Assembly (NCBI RefSeq): GCF_030388325.1
Contig: NZ_CP103794.1
Coordinates: forward strand, 5,084,001-5,148,000
DNA from: Flavobacterium johnsoniae
Lineage (GTDB): Bacteria > Bacteroidota > Bacteroidia > Flavobacteriales > Flavobacteriaceae
Direction: 5' to 3'
Length of the DNA stretch: 64,000 nt
Of this stretch, positions 47,638 through 64,000 are shown one piece after another. Positions within the stretch are counted from its first letter, which is position 1; each line of letters starts with the position of its first letter. Below the pieces are notes generated by a model that was given only the letters and a program-made list of their open reading frames with translations, was not told the DNA's origin and made no database searches. A program made the position numbers and the translations under genes.

Positions 47638-47727
47638 TTGGGCGTTTCCTACGGCCGGGCTATCCGCTTGTATCTTTTTATTTTTAAAGAAAAAATAAAA
47701 AGGATACCGCTTCTATCCCTAACGCGA
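47638..47727. repeat. Structured dispersed intergenic element (GGGCGTT...CCCTAACGC type)
   Basis: The outer pairing GCGTT (47642-47646) / AACGC (47721-47725) encloses a strong hairpin: GTATC plus TTTTTATTTTT (47670-47685) pairs with AAAAATAAAAA plus GATAC (47691-47707), with one bulged G and a 5-base loop. The CCGCTT motif occurs on both sides of the hairpin. I recall very similar elements between many Flavobacteriaceae genes. Its role is unknown. Confidence 0.65.
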
Positions 47728-47810
47728 ACCTGATACGAAGTAACCTTTTTTCTTAATTTCAATGAATTTCTTCCAGTTTTAACTGTAAGTGAGCAAATTT
47801 ATATAAATAA

Positions 47811-58964: not shown

Positions 58965-60242
58965 ATGAAAACAAAATTACACATTGCTCTTATTATCTTC
59001 ACAATCAGCTTTTTCGCACACGCTCAACAACAACCAAAAGGAATCATTGGTACAAATAACTGGATGAACAATTGGACCAATTTTAATCCTGCAAAAACAG
59101 AATACAACGAAGCAACAAATATTATTGCTGGAACAATAGATAAAGACACTAGATTAGTAAAACGAAATACTTATCAATTAGTTGGTGTAGTTTATGTTAC
59201 CAATAATGCCGTTTTAACTATCGAACCTGGAACAGTTATTCGTGGAGACGATAAAACATGTGGAACTCTTGTAATTACGAATGGAGCTAAAATTCTTGCC
59301 GAAGGTTTAGAAACTGATCCTATCGTATTTACTTCGAATAAAGAAAAAACTATCAGAAAACCTGGAGATTGGGGCGGAATTATTGTCTTAGGAAAAGCTC
59401 CAATAAATTCTCTAGGCGGCGTTCATACTTTACCTTTTGATTTAGAAGCAAACTTAAATCATTACGGAGGTCAAGATGCAGAAGACAATTCGGGAATTTT
59501 AAAATATGTTCGAATTGAATATGCGGGAAGAAAATTAAGTTCTACAAAAGAATTAAATGGTCTTTCTTTGGCTGGTGTTGGTAGAAAAACACAATTAAGC
59601 AACATTCAAATAAGTTTTTCGAATGATGATTCTTTCGAATGTTATGGAGGCGATTTGAATATGACTAATTTAATTTCGTACAGAACTACAGATGATGATT
59701 TTGATTTTACTCAAGGAGCTCAAATTAATATTTCTAACAGTATTGCAGTTCGCCATCCTTTTTCATCAGATATTTCAGGATCAAGATGTTTTGAAGTAGA
59801 TTCGTATGAGAAAGTCGCAACAACAGATATGACTAAAAAAATGACTAAAATAAATGCTAACAATATTACTTTAGTTAATTTAGAAGAAAACAATCAAGGT
59901 TTGGTTAGAGAATCTATTTTTGTGAGAGAAAATACATTTTTCAATTTAAGCAACAGTATTGTTTCTGGTTTTGCGCCTTTCGTTTTATTAGAAGGAGCTA
60001 TTGGAAATGGAGATGTAAATCTTTCTAAAATGAGTTTTAAAAACACAATTGTAAACAATTGCAATGGCGGAATTACAAGCGAATCTGCAAGTAGCAATGA
60101 TTCAATTCAGAATTATTACAATCCAAATTCTGGTTTAGAATACACAAAAATGAAAAACACAGAATTGTTTGCAACGCCTAACATAAAAGGAAACCCAGAT
60201 TTTAGAGCTAGCACAAACAATACAATAGCAATTGGAAATTAA
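58965..60242 (+). CDS. Secreted parallel beta-helix protein
   Basis: The product is 425 residues with a signal peptide (cut near 20). Repeating strand-turn units (VLTIEPGTVIRGDD; GTLVITNGAKILAEGLETDPIVF; ITLVNLEENNQGLV) indicate a right-handed parallel beta-helix. There is no type IX secretion C-terminal domain and no catalytic motif I can name. Similar proteins in Flavobacterium accompany TonB-dependent receptors, but none is adjacent here. The function is unknown. Confidence 0.75.
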   Translation: MKTKLHIALIIFTISFFAHAQQQPKGIIGTNNWMNNWTNFNPAKTEYNEATNIIAGTIDKDTRLVKRNTYQLVGVVYVTNNAVLTIEPGTVIRGDDKTCGTLVITNGAKILAEGLETDPIVFTSNKEKTIRKPGDWGGIIVLGKAPINSLGGVHTLPFDLEANLNHYGGQDAEDNSGILKYVRIEYAGRKLSSTKELNGLSLAGVGRKTQLSNIQISFSNDDSFECYGGDLNMTNLISYRTTDDDFDFTQGAQINISNSIAVRHPFSSDISGSRCFEVDSYEKVATTDMTKKMTKINANNITLVNLEENNQGLVRESIFVRENTFFNLSNSIVSGFAPFVLLEGAIGNGDVNLSKMSFKNTIVNNCNGGITSESASSNDSIQNYYNPNSGLEYTKMKNTELFATPNIKGNPDFRASTNNTIAIGN

Positions 60243-60339: not shown

Positions 60340-60347
60340 TATCTTTG
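60340..60347 (+). promoter_or_regulatory. -7 promoter element of the trp operon
   Basis: TATCTTTG, an exact TAnnTTTG match, lies 17 bases before the leader-peptide ATG. Confidence 0.7.
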
Positions 60348-60364
60348 TCTCAACAAAAACAAAT

Positions 60365-60421
60365 ATGAGAACATTATTAAACAATTCTTGGTGGTGGAAC
60401 AATTTACGTCAGACGTCGTGA
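60365..60421 (+). CDS. trpL: trp operon leader peptide
   Basis: The 18-residue frame MRTLLNNSWWWNNLRQTS has three adjacent Trp codons at positions 9-11, which is very unlikely by chance in a 57-base frame directly upstream of trpE. It is the ribosome-stalling sensor of charged tRNA-Trp. Its stop codon overlaps the antiterminator arm (60415-60421), so a ribosome that finishes the peptide would mask that arm. Confidence 0.94.
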   Translation: MRTLLNNSWWWNNLRQTS

Positions 60422-60491
60422 ACAAAGCTTCCTATGGTATTGTAAAACTATAAATATAAAAGGCTTGTCATCACGACAAGCCTTTTTTTTT
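60415..60491 (+). promoter_or_regulatory. trp attenuator: competing antiterminator and terminator
   Basis: The terminator is AAAAGGCTTGTC (60458-60469) paired with GACAAGCCTTTT (60475-60486), loop of five, then a T-run to 60491. The antiterminator is GTCGTGA (60415-60421) paired with TCACGAC (60471-60477), continued by ACA/TGT (60422-60424 with 60466-60468) and AGCTT/AGGCT-type pairs (60426-60430 with 60461-60465), with a two-base and a one-base bulge. The two helices share 60461-60477 and cannot coexist. Confidence 0.88.
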
Positions 60492-60541
60492 GGTCCAAAT
60501 TGAAATTAAAAAATTAACGAAACAACATAAAACTAAATATT

Positions 60542-61942
60542 TTGAAACCTTTTATTCTTAATACGCATTACAAACAAATTCTTGCAGATACGGTTACTCC
60601 TGTTAGTATTTACTTTAAAATCAGAGATAAATTCCCGAACAGCTTATTACTGGAAAGTAGTGATTATCACGGAAATGACAACAGTTTTTCTTATATCTGC
60701 TGCAACCCTATTGCTACTATAAAAATCGAAAATGAAGTTATCTCAAAAACTTTTCCAGACGGAACTTCAGAAAAAACAAATATTGATGCTACAACAAACA
60801 TTCCGCAAGTAATTCAGGAATTTTCAAGTCAGTTTCAATCAGAAAAGAATGATTTCAAATTCATCAATAATGGTTTATTCGGATACATTTCTTATGATGC
60901 TGTTCGTTACTTCGAAAAAGTTTCAATTGCAAAAAAAGATAATGCAACTTCGATTCCAGATGTTTTTTATGCTGTTTATCAAAACATTATTGCAATTAAC
61001 CATTTTAAAAATGAAGCTTACATTTTCTGCCATAGCGTTGACGGAAAAAACAATATCGCAGAAATTGAACAATTGCTTCAATCTAGAAATATTGCTTCTT
61101 ATAAATTCTCTAAAGAAGGTGAAGGTTTCTCTAATTTAACTGATGAAGAGTTTAAGCAAAATGTAGCTCTTGCAAAAAAACACTGTTATAGAGGCGATGT
61201 TTTCCAATTGGTTCTTTCACGTCGTTTTACACAAGGTTTTAAAGGTGATGAATTTAATGTTTATAGAGCTTTAAGAAGTATAAATCCTTCTCCGTATTTA
61301 TTCTTTTTTGATTATGGAGATTTCAAAATATTTGGTTCTTCGCCAGAAGCACAAATTATTGTAAAAGACAGAAAAGCAGAAATTCATCCGATTGCAGGAA
61401 CTTTCAAAAGAACTGGAAATGATGAGCAAGATGCGCTCTTAGCCAAAGAACTTTCTGAAGATAAAAAAGAAAATAGCGAACACGTTATGCTTGTTGACTT
61501 AGCAAGAAATGATTTGAGCAGAAATGGTCACGATGTAAATGTGGAAAAATATAGAGAAGTGCAGTTTTTCTCTCACGTAATTCATCTAGTTTCTAAAGTT
61601 ACGGGACATTTGCATGATAAAGCTACGACAATGCAAGTTGTTGCAGATACTTTTCCTGCAGGAACTTTAAGCGGTGCGCCAAAACACAGAGCGATGCAAT
61701 TAATTGAAGATTGCGAAAAAACAAATCGTAATTTTTACGGCGGCGCAATTGGTTTCATGGATTTTAACGGAAATTTTAATCACGCCATTATGATTCGAAC
61801 TTTCCTTTCTAAAAATCATCAATTGCATTGTCAAGCTGGAGCCGGAATTGTTGCAAGCTCAGATGAAGAAAGCGAAATGCAGGAAGTTTACAATAAACTA
61901 AGAGCTTTAAACACAGCTTTGGAAATTGCAGAAAAAATATAA
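60542..61942 (+). CDS. trpE: Anthranilate synthase component I
   Basis: This 466-residue enzyme starts with TTG, preceded by an AT-rich region. The chorismate-binding domain is complete (DVFQLVLSRRFTQGF; SPYLFFFDYGDFKIFGSSPEAQI; HPIAGTFKRTGNDEQDALLAKELSEDKKENSEHVMLVDLARNDL). It makes anthranilate from chorismate and the ammonia released by TrpG. It is the first structural gene after the attenuator. Confidence 0.95.
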   Translation: MKPFILNTHYKQILADTVTPVSIYFKIRDKFPNSLLLESSDYHGNDNSFSYICCNPIATIKIENEVISKTFPDGTSEKTNIDATTNIPQVIQEFSSQFQSEKNDFKFINNGLFGYISYDAVRYFEKVSIAKKDNATSIPDVFYAVYQNIIAINHFKNEAYIFCHSVDGKNNIAEIEQLLQSRNIASYKFSKEGEGFSNLTDEEFKQNVALAKKHCYRGDVFQLVLSRRFTQGFKGDEFNVYRALRSINPSPYLFFFDYGDFKIFGSSPEAQIIVKDRKAEIHPIAGTFKRTGNDEQDALLAKELSEDKKENSEHVMLVDLARNDLSRNGHDVNVEKYREVQFFSHVIHLVSKVTGHLHDKATTMQVVADTFPAGTLSGAPKHRAMQLIEDCEKTNRNFYGGAIGFMDFNGNFNHAIMIRTFLSKNHQLHCQAGAGIVASSDEESEMQEVYNKLRALNTALEIAEKI

Positions 61943-62047: not shown

Positions 62048-62488
62048 ATGAAAAAAGTAGTTTCAATTTTAATTTTAATCATTACCATTACGTCATGCAA
62101 TTCAGAAAAGAAGAATCCAATTGAAGGAACCTGGCGTCTTATATCAGCAGAAACAACCGAAAAAGATTCTACTTTTTCAACTTTCAATAAAAATGCTAAA
62201 ATGATTAAAATTATAAACGAAACTCATTTTGCTTTTTTAAATCATGATTTGAAAAACGGAAAAGATTCAACAACAGCATTATATTTTGCAGGAGGCGGAA
62301 AATATACTTTAAAAGATAGTATTTACACTGAAAATCTAGAATATTTTAATAACCGCAACTGGGAAAACAACAAATTCGAATTTGTAGTAAAAGTTCAAAA
62401 CGACACCTTAATTCAAAAAGGAATCGAAAAAGTAGAAAAATTAGGCGTAGATCATATTATAATTGAGAAATACGTTCGAGAGAAATAA
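62048..62488 (+). CDS. Lipocalin-like lipoprotein inserted in the trp operon
   Basis: This 146-residue protein has a lipobox ending TITSC (Cys17). The start of the mature part (NPIEGTWRLISAE) resembles the lipocalin-like/DUF4488 family. Nothing links it to tryptophan synthesis. It lies between trpE and trpG and is flanked on both sides by identical palindromic repeats, which suggests an insertion. Confidence 0.75.
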   Translation: MKKVVSILILIITITSCNSEKKNPIEGTWRLISAETTEKDSTFSTFNKNAKMIKIINETHFAFLNHDLKNGKDSTTALYFAGGGKYTLKDSIYTENLEYFNNRNWENNKFEFVVKVQNDTLIQKGIEKVEKLGVDHIIIEKYVREK

Positions 62489-62576: not shown

Positions 62577-63143
62577 ATGAAAAAAATACTAGTTATAGAC
62601 AATTACGATAGTTTCACTTACAATTTAGTGCACTATTTAGAAGATTTAAACTGCGAAGTTACCGTTTACAGAAACGACGAATTCGATATCGATGAAATTG
62701 CTTCGTTTGATAAAATTTTACTTTCGCCAGGACCTGGAATTCCAGATGAAGCAGGTTTGCTAAAAGCCGTAATCGAAAAATACAGTCCGACAAAAAGCAT
62801 TCTTGGCGTTTGTTTAGGACAACAAGCAATTGGAGAAGTTTTTGGCGGAACACTTTCTAACCTTGATAAGGTTTATCACGGTGTTGCCACAAATGTAAAA
62901 ACCGTTGTAGATGACGAAATTCTTTTTGAAGGTTTAGGAAAAGAATTTGAAGTTGGACGTTATCATTCTTGGGTTGTAGACACCAATCTTCCAGACGAAC
63001 TTGAAGCAACTTCATTTGACGAAAACGGACAAGTAATGTCTTTAAGACACAGAAATTATGACGTTAGAGGCGTTCAGTTTCACCCAGAAAGTGTCTTAAC
63101 TCCAAACGGAAAAAAAATGTTAGAGAATTGGATTAAGAGTTAG
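62577..63143 (+). CDS. trpG: Anthranilate synthase component II (glutamine amidotransferase)
   Basis: This 188-residue class I amidotransferase starts ILVIDNYDSFTYNLVHYL. The catalytic Cys is in GVCLGQQAIGE, and His and Glu are in VQFHPESVLT. It supplies ammonia to TrpE. It could also serve PabB, as in other Bacteroidota, which I cannot exclude. Confidence 0.94.
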   Translation: MKKILVIDNYDSFTYNLVHYLEDLNCEVTVYRNDEFDIDEIASFDKILLSPGPGIPDEAGLLKAVIEKYSPTKSILGVCLGQQAIGEVFGGTLSNLDKVYHGVATNVKTVVDDEILFEGLGKEFEVGRYHSWVVDTNLPDELEATSFDENGQVMSLRHRNYDVRGVQFHPESVLTPNGKKMLENWIKS

Positions 63144-63240: not shown

Positions 63241-64000
63241 ATGAAAACTATATTAAACAAATTAATCAATCACGAAGTTCTTTCTAAAGAAGAAGCAAAA
63301 CAAGTATTGATTAATATTTCAAGCGGTCAATACAATCCGAGTCAGATTTCGGCATTTTTGACTGTATTTATGATGCGAAGCATTACAATTGATGAACTTT
63401 CGGGATTTCGCGAAGCTTTATTAGAATTATGTATTCGTGTCGATTTATCTGCCTATAACACTATCGATTTATGCGGAACGGGTGGCGATGGAAAAGATAC
63501 TTTCAATATTTCTACTTTGGCTTCTTTTGTTTCAGCTGGAGCTGGAATTAAAGTTGCAAAACACGGAAATTACGGAGTTTCATCAATTTCTGGATCAAGC
63601 AACGTGATGGAAAAAATGGGAATTAAATTCAGTAACGATCCTTCTTTTTTAGAAAAATGTATTGATCAGGCTGGAATCTGCGTTTTACATGCTCCTCTAT
63701 TTCACCCAGCGATGAAAAATGTCGGACCAATTAGAAAGGAATTGGCGGTAAAAACCTTCTTTAATATGTTGGGACCAATGGTAAATCCTTCATTTCCGCA
63801 AAATCAATTAGTTGGGGTTTTCAACTTAGAGTTGGCAAGAATGTATGCTTATTTATACCAAAATACAGATACTAATTTTACGATTTTACATTCGCTTGAC
63901 GGATATGATGAAATTTCGTTAACAGGCGCAACCAAAACAATTTCAAACCATATGGAAGGAATGCTAAAACCAGAAGATTTTGGCGTTCGTCTTTTATCTC
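63241..64000 (+). CDS. trpD: Anthranilate phosphoribosyltransferase, C-terminus cut by window edge
   Basis: About 253 residues are visible from the ATG at 63241. The PRPP-binding motif DLCGTGGDGKDTFNIST and KHGNYGVSSISGSSNVMEKMG are intact, as is NVGPIRKELAVKTFFNMLGP. It attaches phosphoribose to anthranilate. The gene runs off the right edge; trpC, trpF, trpB and trpA would be expected beyond. Confidence 0.95.
   Translation, partial: MKTILNKLINHEVLSKEEAKQVLINISSGQYNPSQISAFLTVFMMRSITIDELSGFREALLELCIRVDLSAYNTIDLCGTGGDGKDTFNISTLASFVSAGAGIKVAKHGNYGVSSISGSSNVMEKMGIKFSNDPSFLEKCIDQAGICVLHAPLFHPAMKNVGPIRKELAVKTFFNMLGPMVNPSFPQNQLVGVFNLELARMYAYLYQNTDTNFTILHSLDGYDEISLTGATKTISNHMEGMLKPEDFGVRLLS

Follow-up and report, generated by a model that had tools for sequence, protein, structure and literature searches.

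A Bacteroid-trp leader ahead of trpE in Flavobacterium johnsoniae: a probable ribosome-mediated attenuator with lysine-coded relatives

The trp leader of F. johnsoniae

The window analysed here is a stretch of 64,000 nucleotides from Flavobacterium johnsoniae (NCBI RefSeq assembly GCF_030388325.1, contig NZ_CP103794.1, positions 5,084,001 to 5,148,000 of the forward strand). Close to its end a short leader precedes trpE, the first controlled gene, which is followed by trpG and trpD (Table 1). The leader carries a promoter box, a small open reading frame with three adjacent Trp codons, a hairpin formed by strands 1 and 2 (the 1:2 hairpin), an antiterminator and an intrinsic terminator. It belongs to the Rfam family RF01692 (Bacteroid-trp) and very probably controls the trp operon by ribosome-mediated transcription attenuation. 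The trpE product has TIGR00564 as its best family, at 445 bits and below the model cut-off of 517.7.

Table 1. Coordinates of the trp leader and of the downstream genes, in positions of the window
Feature	Position	Strand	Basis or remark
-7 box TATCTTTG (TAnnTTTG) of the housekeeping promoter	60340-60347	+	Predicted transcription start near 60352
RF01692 (Bacteroid-trp) match	60345-60469	+	
Leader peptide frame MRTLLNNSWWWNNLRQTS, 18 codons, ATG at 60365, stop TGA at 60419-60421	60365-60421	+	
1:2 hairpin, outer helix, 60381-60388 with 60436-60443, one mismatch (60386:60438)	60381-60443	+	Alignment of relatives; same helix in the Rfam model
Sensor, three adjacent Trp (TGG) codons, the final one 7 codons ahead of the stop	60389-60397	+	
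1:2 hairpin, inner helix (anti-antiterminator), 60403-60408 with 60417-60422	60403-60422	+	Alignment of relatives
Antiterminator 5' strand; core 60415-60421 overlaps the leader stop codon	60415-60430	+	
Intrinsic terminator, stem 60458-60469/60475-60486, loop 60470-60474, T-run to 60491	60458-60491	+	
Antiterminator 3' strand: terminator 5' arm (60461-60466), loop and first three 3'-arm bases (60471-60477)	60461-60477	+	
trpE, TTG start, anthranilate synthase component I, first controlled gene	60542-61942	+	Profile match
trpG, glutamine amidotransferase of anthranilate synthase	62577-63143	+	TIGR00566 over cut-off
trpD, anthranilate phosphoribosyltransferase, continues past the window end	63241-63999	+	TIGR01245 over cut-off

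The -7 box recognised by the housekeeping sigma factor of F. psychrophilum occupies positions -12 to -5 (PMC9723704), and transcription is therefore predicted to start near 60352, which would leave about 13 nt of 5' leader ahead of the ATG. The terminator, with 12 pairs and a loop of 5, was detected by a scan in which 50 shuffles averaged 0.0, and folding of the whole leader gave z = -2.54, with 3 of 200 shuffles as low. The TAnnTTTG promoter, the 18-residue frame and the 12-bp terminator with its T-run had all been put forward in an original prediction made from this DNA, and every coordinate given there was correct. The antiterminator of roughly 15 bp that it proposed is a fair description of a helix which has 13 pairs in the predicted fold, with 2 more possible. 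The pairing for both of the helices that it named is present, but it missed a third structure, the 1:2 hairpin, which competes for the antiterminator strand.

The RF01692 covariance model matches the leader over model positions 1-131 with 66.5 bits, against a curated cut-off of 49 (E = 5e-6 for the whole window). The element is therefore a member of a known family and is not new. The family was described by Weinberg et al. in 2010 and marked as a likely cis-regulatory RNA of Bacteroidetes (PMC2864571), and Rochat et al. in 2019 reported that the element is conserved ahead of the F. psychrophilum trp operon and likened it to the E. coli leader, with termination and antitermination elements (PMC6414381). 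The RF01692 antiterminator does not appear in the titles and abstract openings of the literature matches listed for attenuation in the phylum and for Bacteroidetes trp leaders. Within the window only RF01692 and RF01705 reach their Rfam cut-offs; no model of the proteobacterial trp leader does so, in line with the earlier statement that the sequence is unrelated to it, and no T-box model does. What is new lies in the relatives, namely a tested layout for the family, a Lys-coded twin before lysine genes, and a set of oddities (among them tandem leaders, a second leader type and the spacing of the promoter box).

Conservation among relatives and a lysine-coded twin

RF01692 was searched with stricter filters in 150 genomes of the genus and in 395 genomes drawn over the phylum, and was matched in 97 and 42 of them, respectively. 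We set the line for a TrpE-bearing genus genome at a TrpE-type match of 360 bits or more, which 104 of the 150 have; no match attains the TIGR00564 cut-off, and the other listed ones lie below 283 bits. The family is present in 95 of these 104 genomes versus 2 of the 46 without TrpE; 93 of the 104 have it 78-568 nt ahead of the TrpE match and on the strand of that match. All of the other 11 TrpE-bearing genomes have a short leader with a run of TGG codons before trpE, followed by a script-called terminator (ten start with ATG and one, in genome G123, apparently with GTG). A Trp-codon leader thus stands ahead of trpE in 104 of 104 TrpE-bearing genomes of the genus.

Taken together, the two samples gave 136 distinct RF01692 places. 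A frame with adjacent Trp codons opens from an ATG at 134 of them, the exceptions being L086, where the start seems to be GTG, and L122, whose leader carries Lys codons; the Trp codons are conserved among relatives, as the original prediction had expected. In 124 of 132 loci a TAnnTTTG box lies no more than 45 nt from the ATG of the leader, versus 58 of 2584 random control stretches. At seven loci (L032, L036, L057, L101, L114, L116 and L123) the element stands ahead of trpB instead, the gene being over the TIGR00263 cut-off in all seven.

The exceptional locus L122, whose RF01692 match of 46.2 bits is below the cut-off, has the leader MNTWIIKKGKKQYLRRTS and is followed by an aspartokinase gene and then by a lysA-like gene. 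We built a model, R1, from 42 Trp loci (46 were picked), taking in each the stretch that follows the Trp codons and excluding L122; its E-values are rough. In the 150 genus genomes, where matches above about 49 bits were considered (several of the lower ones adjoin trp loci on the other strand), R1 recovered, besides the trp loci, ten loci at 52.2-78.9 bits, which are L122 and L176-L184. None of the ten reaches the cut-off of any Rfam family. All ten have a Lys-codon leader peptide, with KKGKK in seven and KKQKK, KVKK or RKGKK in the others, and in all ten the next gene is an aspartokinase, over the cut-off of TIGR00657 and with NF006570 (lysine-sensitive aspartokinase 3) as best family at 380-401 bits, below its cut-off of 455. 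A lysA gene follows the aspartokinase in the three loci checked; those of L178 and L180 are over the TIGR01048 cut-off and that of L122 is broken by the end of the stretch. Among the matches listed, 13 genus matches to NF006570 have at least 370 bits and an open frame shorter than 600 aa; ten are the Lys loci and the others are in genomes G074, G092 and G104. Over the 395 phylum genomes R1 recovered two more loci, L185 and L186, from another genus of the same order, with KKAKK and KKGKK before the same gene. Two further phylum matches at 45-46 bits (L187 and L188) are not leaders.

These twelve leaders resemble the Trp leaders in their 3' half, which scores 52-79 bits against a model made from Trp loci only, in their TCGTGA strand, in the kind of terminator and in the distance from sensor to stop; they differ from that of F. 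johnsoniae in having Lys codons in place of Trp codons and lysine genes downstream. In all twelve the final Lys codon is 7 codons ahead of the stop, which is the position of the last Trp codon in the window (for L185 and L186 the distance was read from the peptides). The TCGTGA strand, which overlaps the stop codon, faces TCACGA in the terminator loop, or TCGCGA, giving a G-U pair, in L177 and L180. The sensor codons hence match the pathway: Trp codons precede trp genes, and all 12 loci with Lys codons on this scaffold precede lysine-type aspartokinase genes. With lysine genes downstream, Lys codons occupy the place of the Trp codons, equally far from the stop; this natural exchange of sensors, read from sequence comparison, points to a stalled ribosome as the sensor and supports ribosome stalling. 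A lysine leader of this kind does not appear in the titles and abstract openings of the literature matches listed, and the main text of PMC9723704 makes no mention of lysC or lysine.

Several variations on the Trp leaders were also seen. The distance from box to ATG has two peaks: 28 of the 124 loci have 4-7 nt and the other 96 have 12-24 nt. With the box at -12 to -5, a spacing of 4 nt means a message that begins at the ATG, and some leader peptides therefore look leaderless. A second type of Trp leader, NTNWWH...W-stop with a Trp codon directly before the stop, occurs in the genus at L144-L149 and is not matched by RF01692. Two genomes have tandem Trp leaders before trpE, each with its own terminator (L172 and L150 in G041, L173 and L153 in G020); their TGG runs are 188 and 211 nt apart, and no TAnnTTTG box lies between them or in the 160 nt ahead of the first run. 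One narrow pattern run over 398 genus genomes yielded no further tandem leaders, its 18 hits being G041, G020 and 16 others whose displayed starts resemble coding sequence, as judged by eye. A scan of the F. johnsoniae genome with a pattern of strand 2 plus the terminator 5' arm matched the trp leader only, the backward-read control giving 1 match per strand.

Competing helices and the position of the ribosome

Compensatory changes were counted in an alignment, A1, of 122 of 135 loci (119 distinct rows), from which the 11 divergent loci, L086 and L122 were omitted and in which G088 was not included; the cells counted are sequences and not independent events. The terminator is paired in 99.4% of cells, and 5 pairs and 21 cells are changed on both sides, a level reached by none of 500 shuffles. 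In the inner helix of the 1:2 hairpin there are 30 doubly changed cells versus 7.7 in shuffles, all of them at 60403:60422 (U-A 84, C-G 28, A-U 2, other 5). No other single pair shows compensation as clearly; its 5' base, 60403, falls on a third codon position and its partner, 60422, is located past the stop codon. The outer helix is paired in 83.7% of cells and shows changes on both sides in 5 of its 8 pairs, with 60382:60442 unpaired in 67 rows. The antiterminator is paired in 93.3% of cells (96.9% for its core), versus 22.6-47.6% for slid partners. RNAalifold over all 122 rows recovers the terminator only.

The window leader shares with RF01692 all 131 model positions, the phylum, the trp genes downstream and the Trp-codon leader. 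The model draws a single long hairpin around the Trp codons, which ends inside the terminator 5' arm, and encodes neither terminator nor antiterminator. On the window 15 of its 24 pairs form, 6 mismatch and 3 fall at deletions, and its outer helix holds in the same register as ours; the RF01692 model thus describes the 1:2 hairpin. Its inner register suits the relatives worse than the shifted one of Table 1 (71.9% versus 96.2% of cells paired) and was set aside, although its small ACG/CGU part still has some double changes and both may form. The Rfam pairing of the Trp codons with 60428-60433 was rejected, as it has no covariation (500 of 500 shuffles are as high).

The predicted fold of the antiterminator joins 60415-60421 to 60471-60477 by 7 pairs and 60425-60430 to 60461-60466 by 6 pairs, with -17.0 kcal/mol in all, and its core engages four loop bases as well as the first three bases of the terminator 3' arm. 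Duplex energies were compared with strand shuffles in the 126 of 133 loci with a script-called terminator (the other 7 show a stem by eye and failed the script rules). No more than 5 of 100 shuffles were as low in 105 of the 126 loci, and none in 41; the window itself, at 5 of 100, is modest, and its antiterminator is borne by conservation and not by energy. By eye, pairing is still possible in L032, L036 and L057 despite their changed bases (shuffles as low: 7 of 100 for L032, 1 of 100 for L036). In L121, also by eye, GUC/GAC of the terminator has become AUC/GAU and the facing antiterminator G has become A; the next pair is lost, and the computed duplex stops short of there. In the leaders without an RF01692 match, the strand pairs with the loop and 3' arm in L144-L149 and with the loop and 5' arm in L143 and L151-L153, L150 being less clear.

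Folding was then computed with a ribosome footprint assumed to reach 12 nt beyond the first A-site base. On this assumption 60415-60430 stays accessible with the ribosome at any of the Trp codons, and a ribosome at the stop codon would cover the RNA as far as 60431. When the RNA is free to 60477-60480, the computed probability of the antiterminator core is 0.98-0.99 with the ribosome at any Trp codon and 0.00 at the stop, which bears out the geometry originally proposed, a stall at Trp freeing the strand and the stop hiding it. Once the RNA extends to 60486, the terminator has a probability of 0.94-0.96 whatever the ribosome state. Differences between the states are confined to free RNA ending at about 60474-60484, and foldings at 20 and 28 degrees gave a similar outcome.

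Attenuation weighed against other readings

In the mechanism that we propose, RNA polymerase would start near 60352 and a ribosome would translate the 18-codon frame. With plentiful charged tRNA-Trp, the ribosome would reach the TGA and cover the RNA to about 60431; with the antiterminator 5' strand hidden, the terminator hairpin would form and transcription would end in the T-run ahead of trpE. With scarce charged tRNA-Trp, it would stall at the sensor codons and disturb the 1:2 hairpin, leaving the 5' strand free to pair with the emerging 3' strand and so to take the terminator 5' arm, the loop and the first 3'-arm bases, with read-through into trpE. For a polymerase at the end of the T-run, the RNA outside the enzyme would end at about 60477-60480, so that the antiterminator would be complete about when termination is decided.

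A number of observations weigh against this mechanism. The full-length fold favours the terminator at 0.94-0.97 in every ribosome state, and a comparison of masked and unmasked full-length foldings, suggested earlier as a check, does not discriminate; the choice must hence be kinetic. Without any ribosome the antiterminator also reaches 0.98-0.99 at 60477-60480, versus 0.09-0.12 in E. coli trpL at the stage when its 3' arm has yet to be made. As to covariation, the original prediction looked for compensatory changes in both of its helices across relatives. They are found in the terminator, but the antiterminator core is almost invariant, and only 4 of 14 antiterminator pairs and 7 cells are doubly changed (4 and 0 of 500 shuffles as high); the antiterminator pair types are reached by 66 of 500 shuffles and 60427:60464 fails in 41 of 119 rows, so that covariation support for this helix is thin. 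In the inner 1:2 helix a single pair varies on both sides, and for the whole 1:2 hairpin the doubly changed pairs are matched by 37 and the pair types by 88 of 500 shuffles. On a TrpE tree of 118 loci the independent changes are too few for significance; among the contrasts listed, 60403:60422 has 3 (mean 1.4 concordant, none against) and 60461:60483 has 5 that are supported (mean 4.0 concordant, none against). Swapping strands among 11 divergent loci, which makes a weak control, ranked the native terminator first in 1 of the 11; that of the window was beaten by 1 of 10. Finally, at four of the loci before trpB (L101, L114, L116 and L123) the frame is 26-31 codons long and overruns the core.

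The preference of the full-length fold could be taken to mean that the ribosome has no part, the terminator being real and controlled by a Trp-binding protein or by a T-box sensing uncharged tRNA, with the frame incidental. We give this a very small chance. Of the Rfam families only RF01692 and Flavo-1 score at or over cut-off in the window; relatives retain the Trp run at 134 of 136 places and in 11 more genus leaders that RF01692 does not match; and the scaffold before lysine genes has Lys codons at the same distance from the stop. The static preference is not counted against attenuation, since E. coli trpL also ends as terminator in the same computation. Control of translation, by structures that govern access to the trpE start in a phylum where a hairpin with a T-run might not be an efficient terminator, would fit the reported absence of Shine-Dalgarno sequences in the group (PMC9723704) and appears improbable, if a little less so. 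A T-run reaching 60491 comes straight after the stem, whose conservation includes 5 pairs changed on both sides; trpE starts 50 nt beyond that run, and relatives differ in how far the first long frame is from the leader. The hairpin is terminator-like on the minus strand as well, and might merely end transcription of the upstream gene (58965-60242), the frame being a chance one. This we hold to be scarcely conceivable, as the stop at 60242 is separated from the hairpin by the promoter box and the Trp frame, and the co-occurrence of the unit with trpE, or trpB, in relatives contradicts it.

Ribosome-mediated attenuation is thus supported as the best reading, the Trp codons being conserved and the Lys-codon relatives lending further support to the part of the ribosome. 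E. coli trpL (NC_000913.3) has in common with it a short leader with adjacent Trp codons, alternative hairpins and a stop positioned where a ribosome ending translation would cover strand 2. In our computation it ends as terminator at 0.82-0.86 in all states, with the antiterminator at 0.92 in the Trp-stalled states before the 3' arm is made and 0.37-0.40 of its pairs left in the stop state. The window leader differs in having three Trp codons where E. coli has two, a strand 2 that overlaps the stop codon, and an antiterminator core that pairs with the terminator loop and 3' arm as well as with the 5' arm. Its 1:2 protection without a ribosome is also weaker; the high probability of the antiterminator in that state indicates that the hairpin guards the strand less well, and an untranslated leader may read through more here than in E. 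coli.

On these grounds we consider it likely that Bacteroid-trp is one issue of a portable scaffold, whose 3' half is reused while the sensor is swapped, Trp before trpE or trpB and Lys before aspartokinase in 12 genomes of two genera, and whose antiterminator core seizes the loop and the first 3'-arm bases, which would block nucleation of the hairpin and not just remove its 5' arm. A few codon changes would then re-aim one attenuator at another amino acid, which bears on the origins of such switches. Attenuation by a stalled ribosome requires tight coupling of translation to transcription, and a set of leaders present lineage-wide (104 of 104 genomes sampled) makes this coupling testable in Bacteroidota. 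The analysis also supplies a known RNA family with a concrete, mutable mechanism that is missing from its Rfam model.

Other features were noted in the window and in the genome. A small lipoprotein-like frame lies between trpE and trpG (62048-62488), with a marginal family match only, and RF01705 (Flavo-1, function unknown) is matched at 47649-47728 on the minus strand. In F. psychrophilum, structured 5' elements were reported at pheA and hisG, stated to be without an Rfam match, and leader-peptide attenuation was suggested before amino-acid operons (PMC9723704); their amino acids and sequence differ from those of the trp leader described here. The F. johnsoniae genome likewise has His- and Phe-rich leaders before hisG and pheA. 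The leader peptides before hisG, pheA and a long aspartokinase-type gene (L137, L138 and L139) are MISIQLHHHHLHYCSQAMC, MATNRFYFSNNFYFFFSRSQDCAMVI and MKSNSTKYQSTMTTPTRVAIAATIISTTTTTTP, and a terminator-like hairpin is seen by eye after each of MISIQLHHHHLHYCSQAMC and MATNRFYFSNNFYFFFSRSQDCAMVI.

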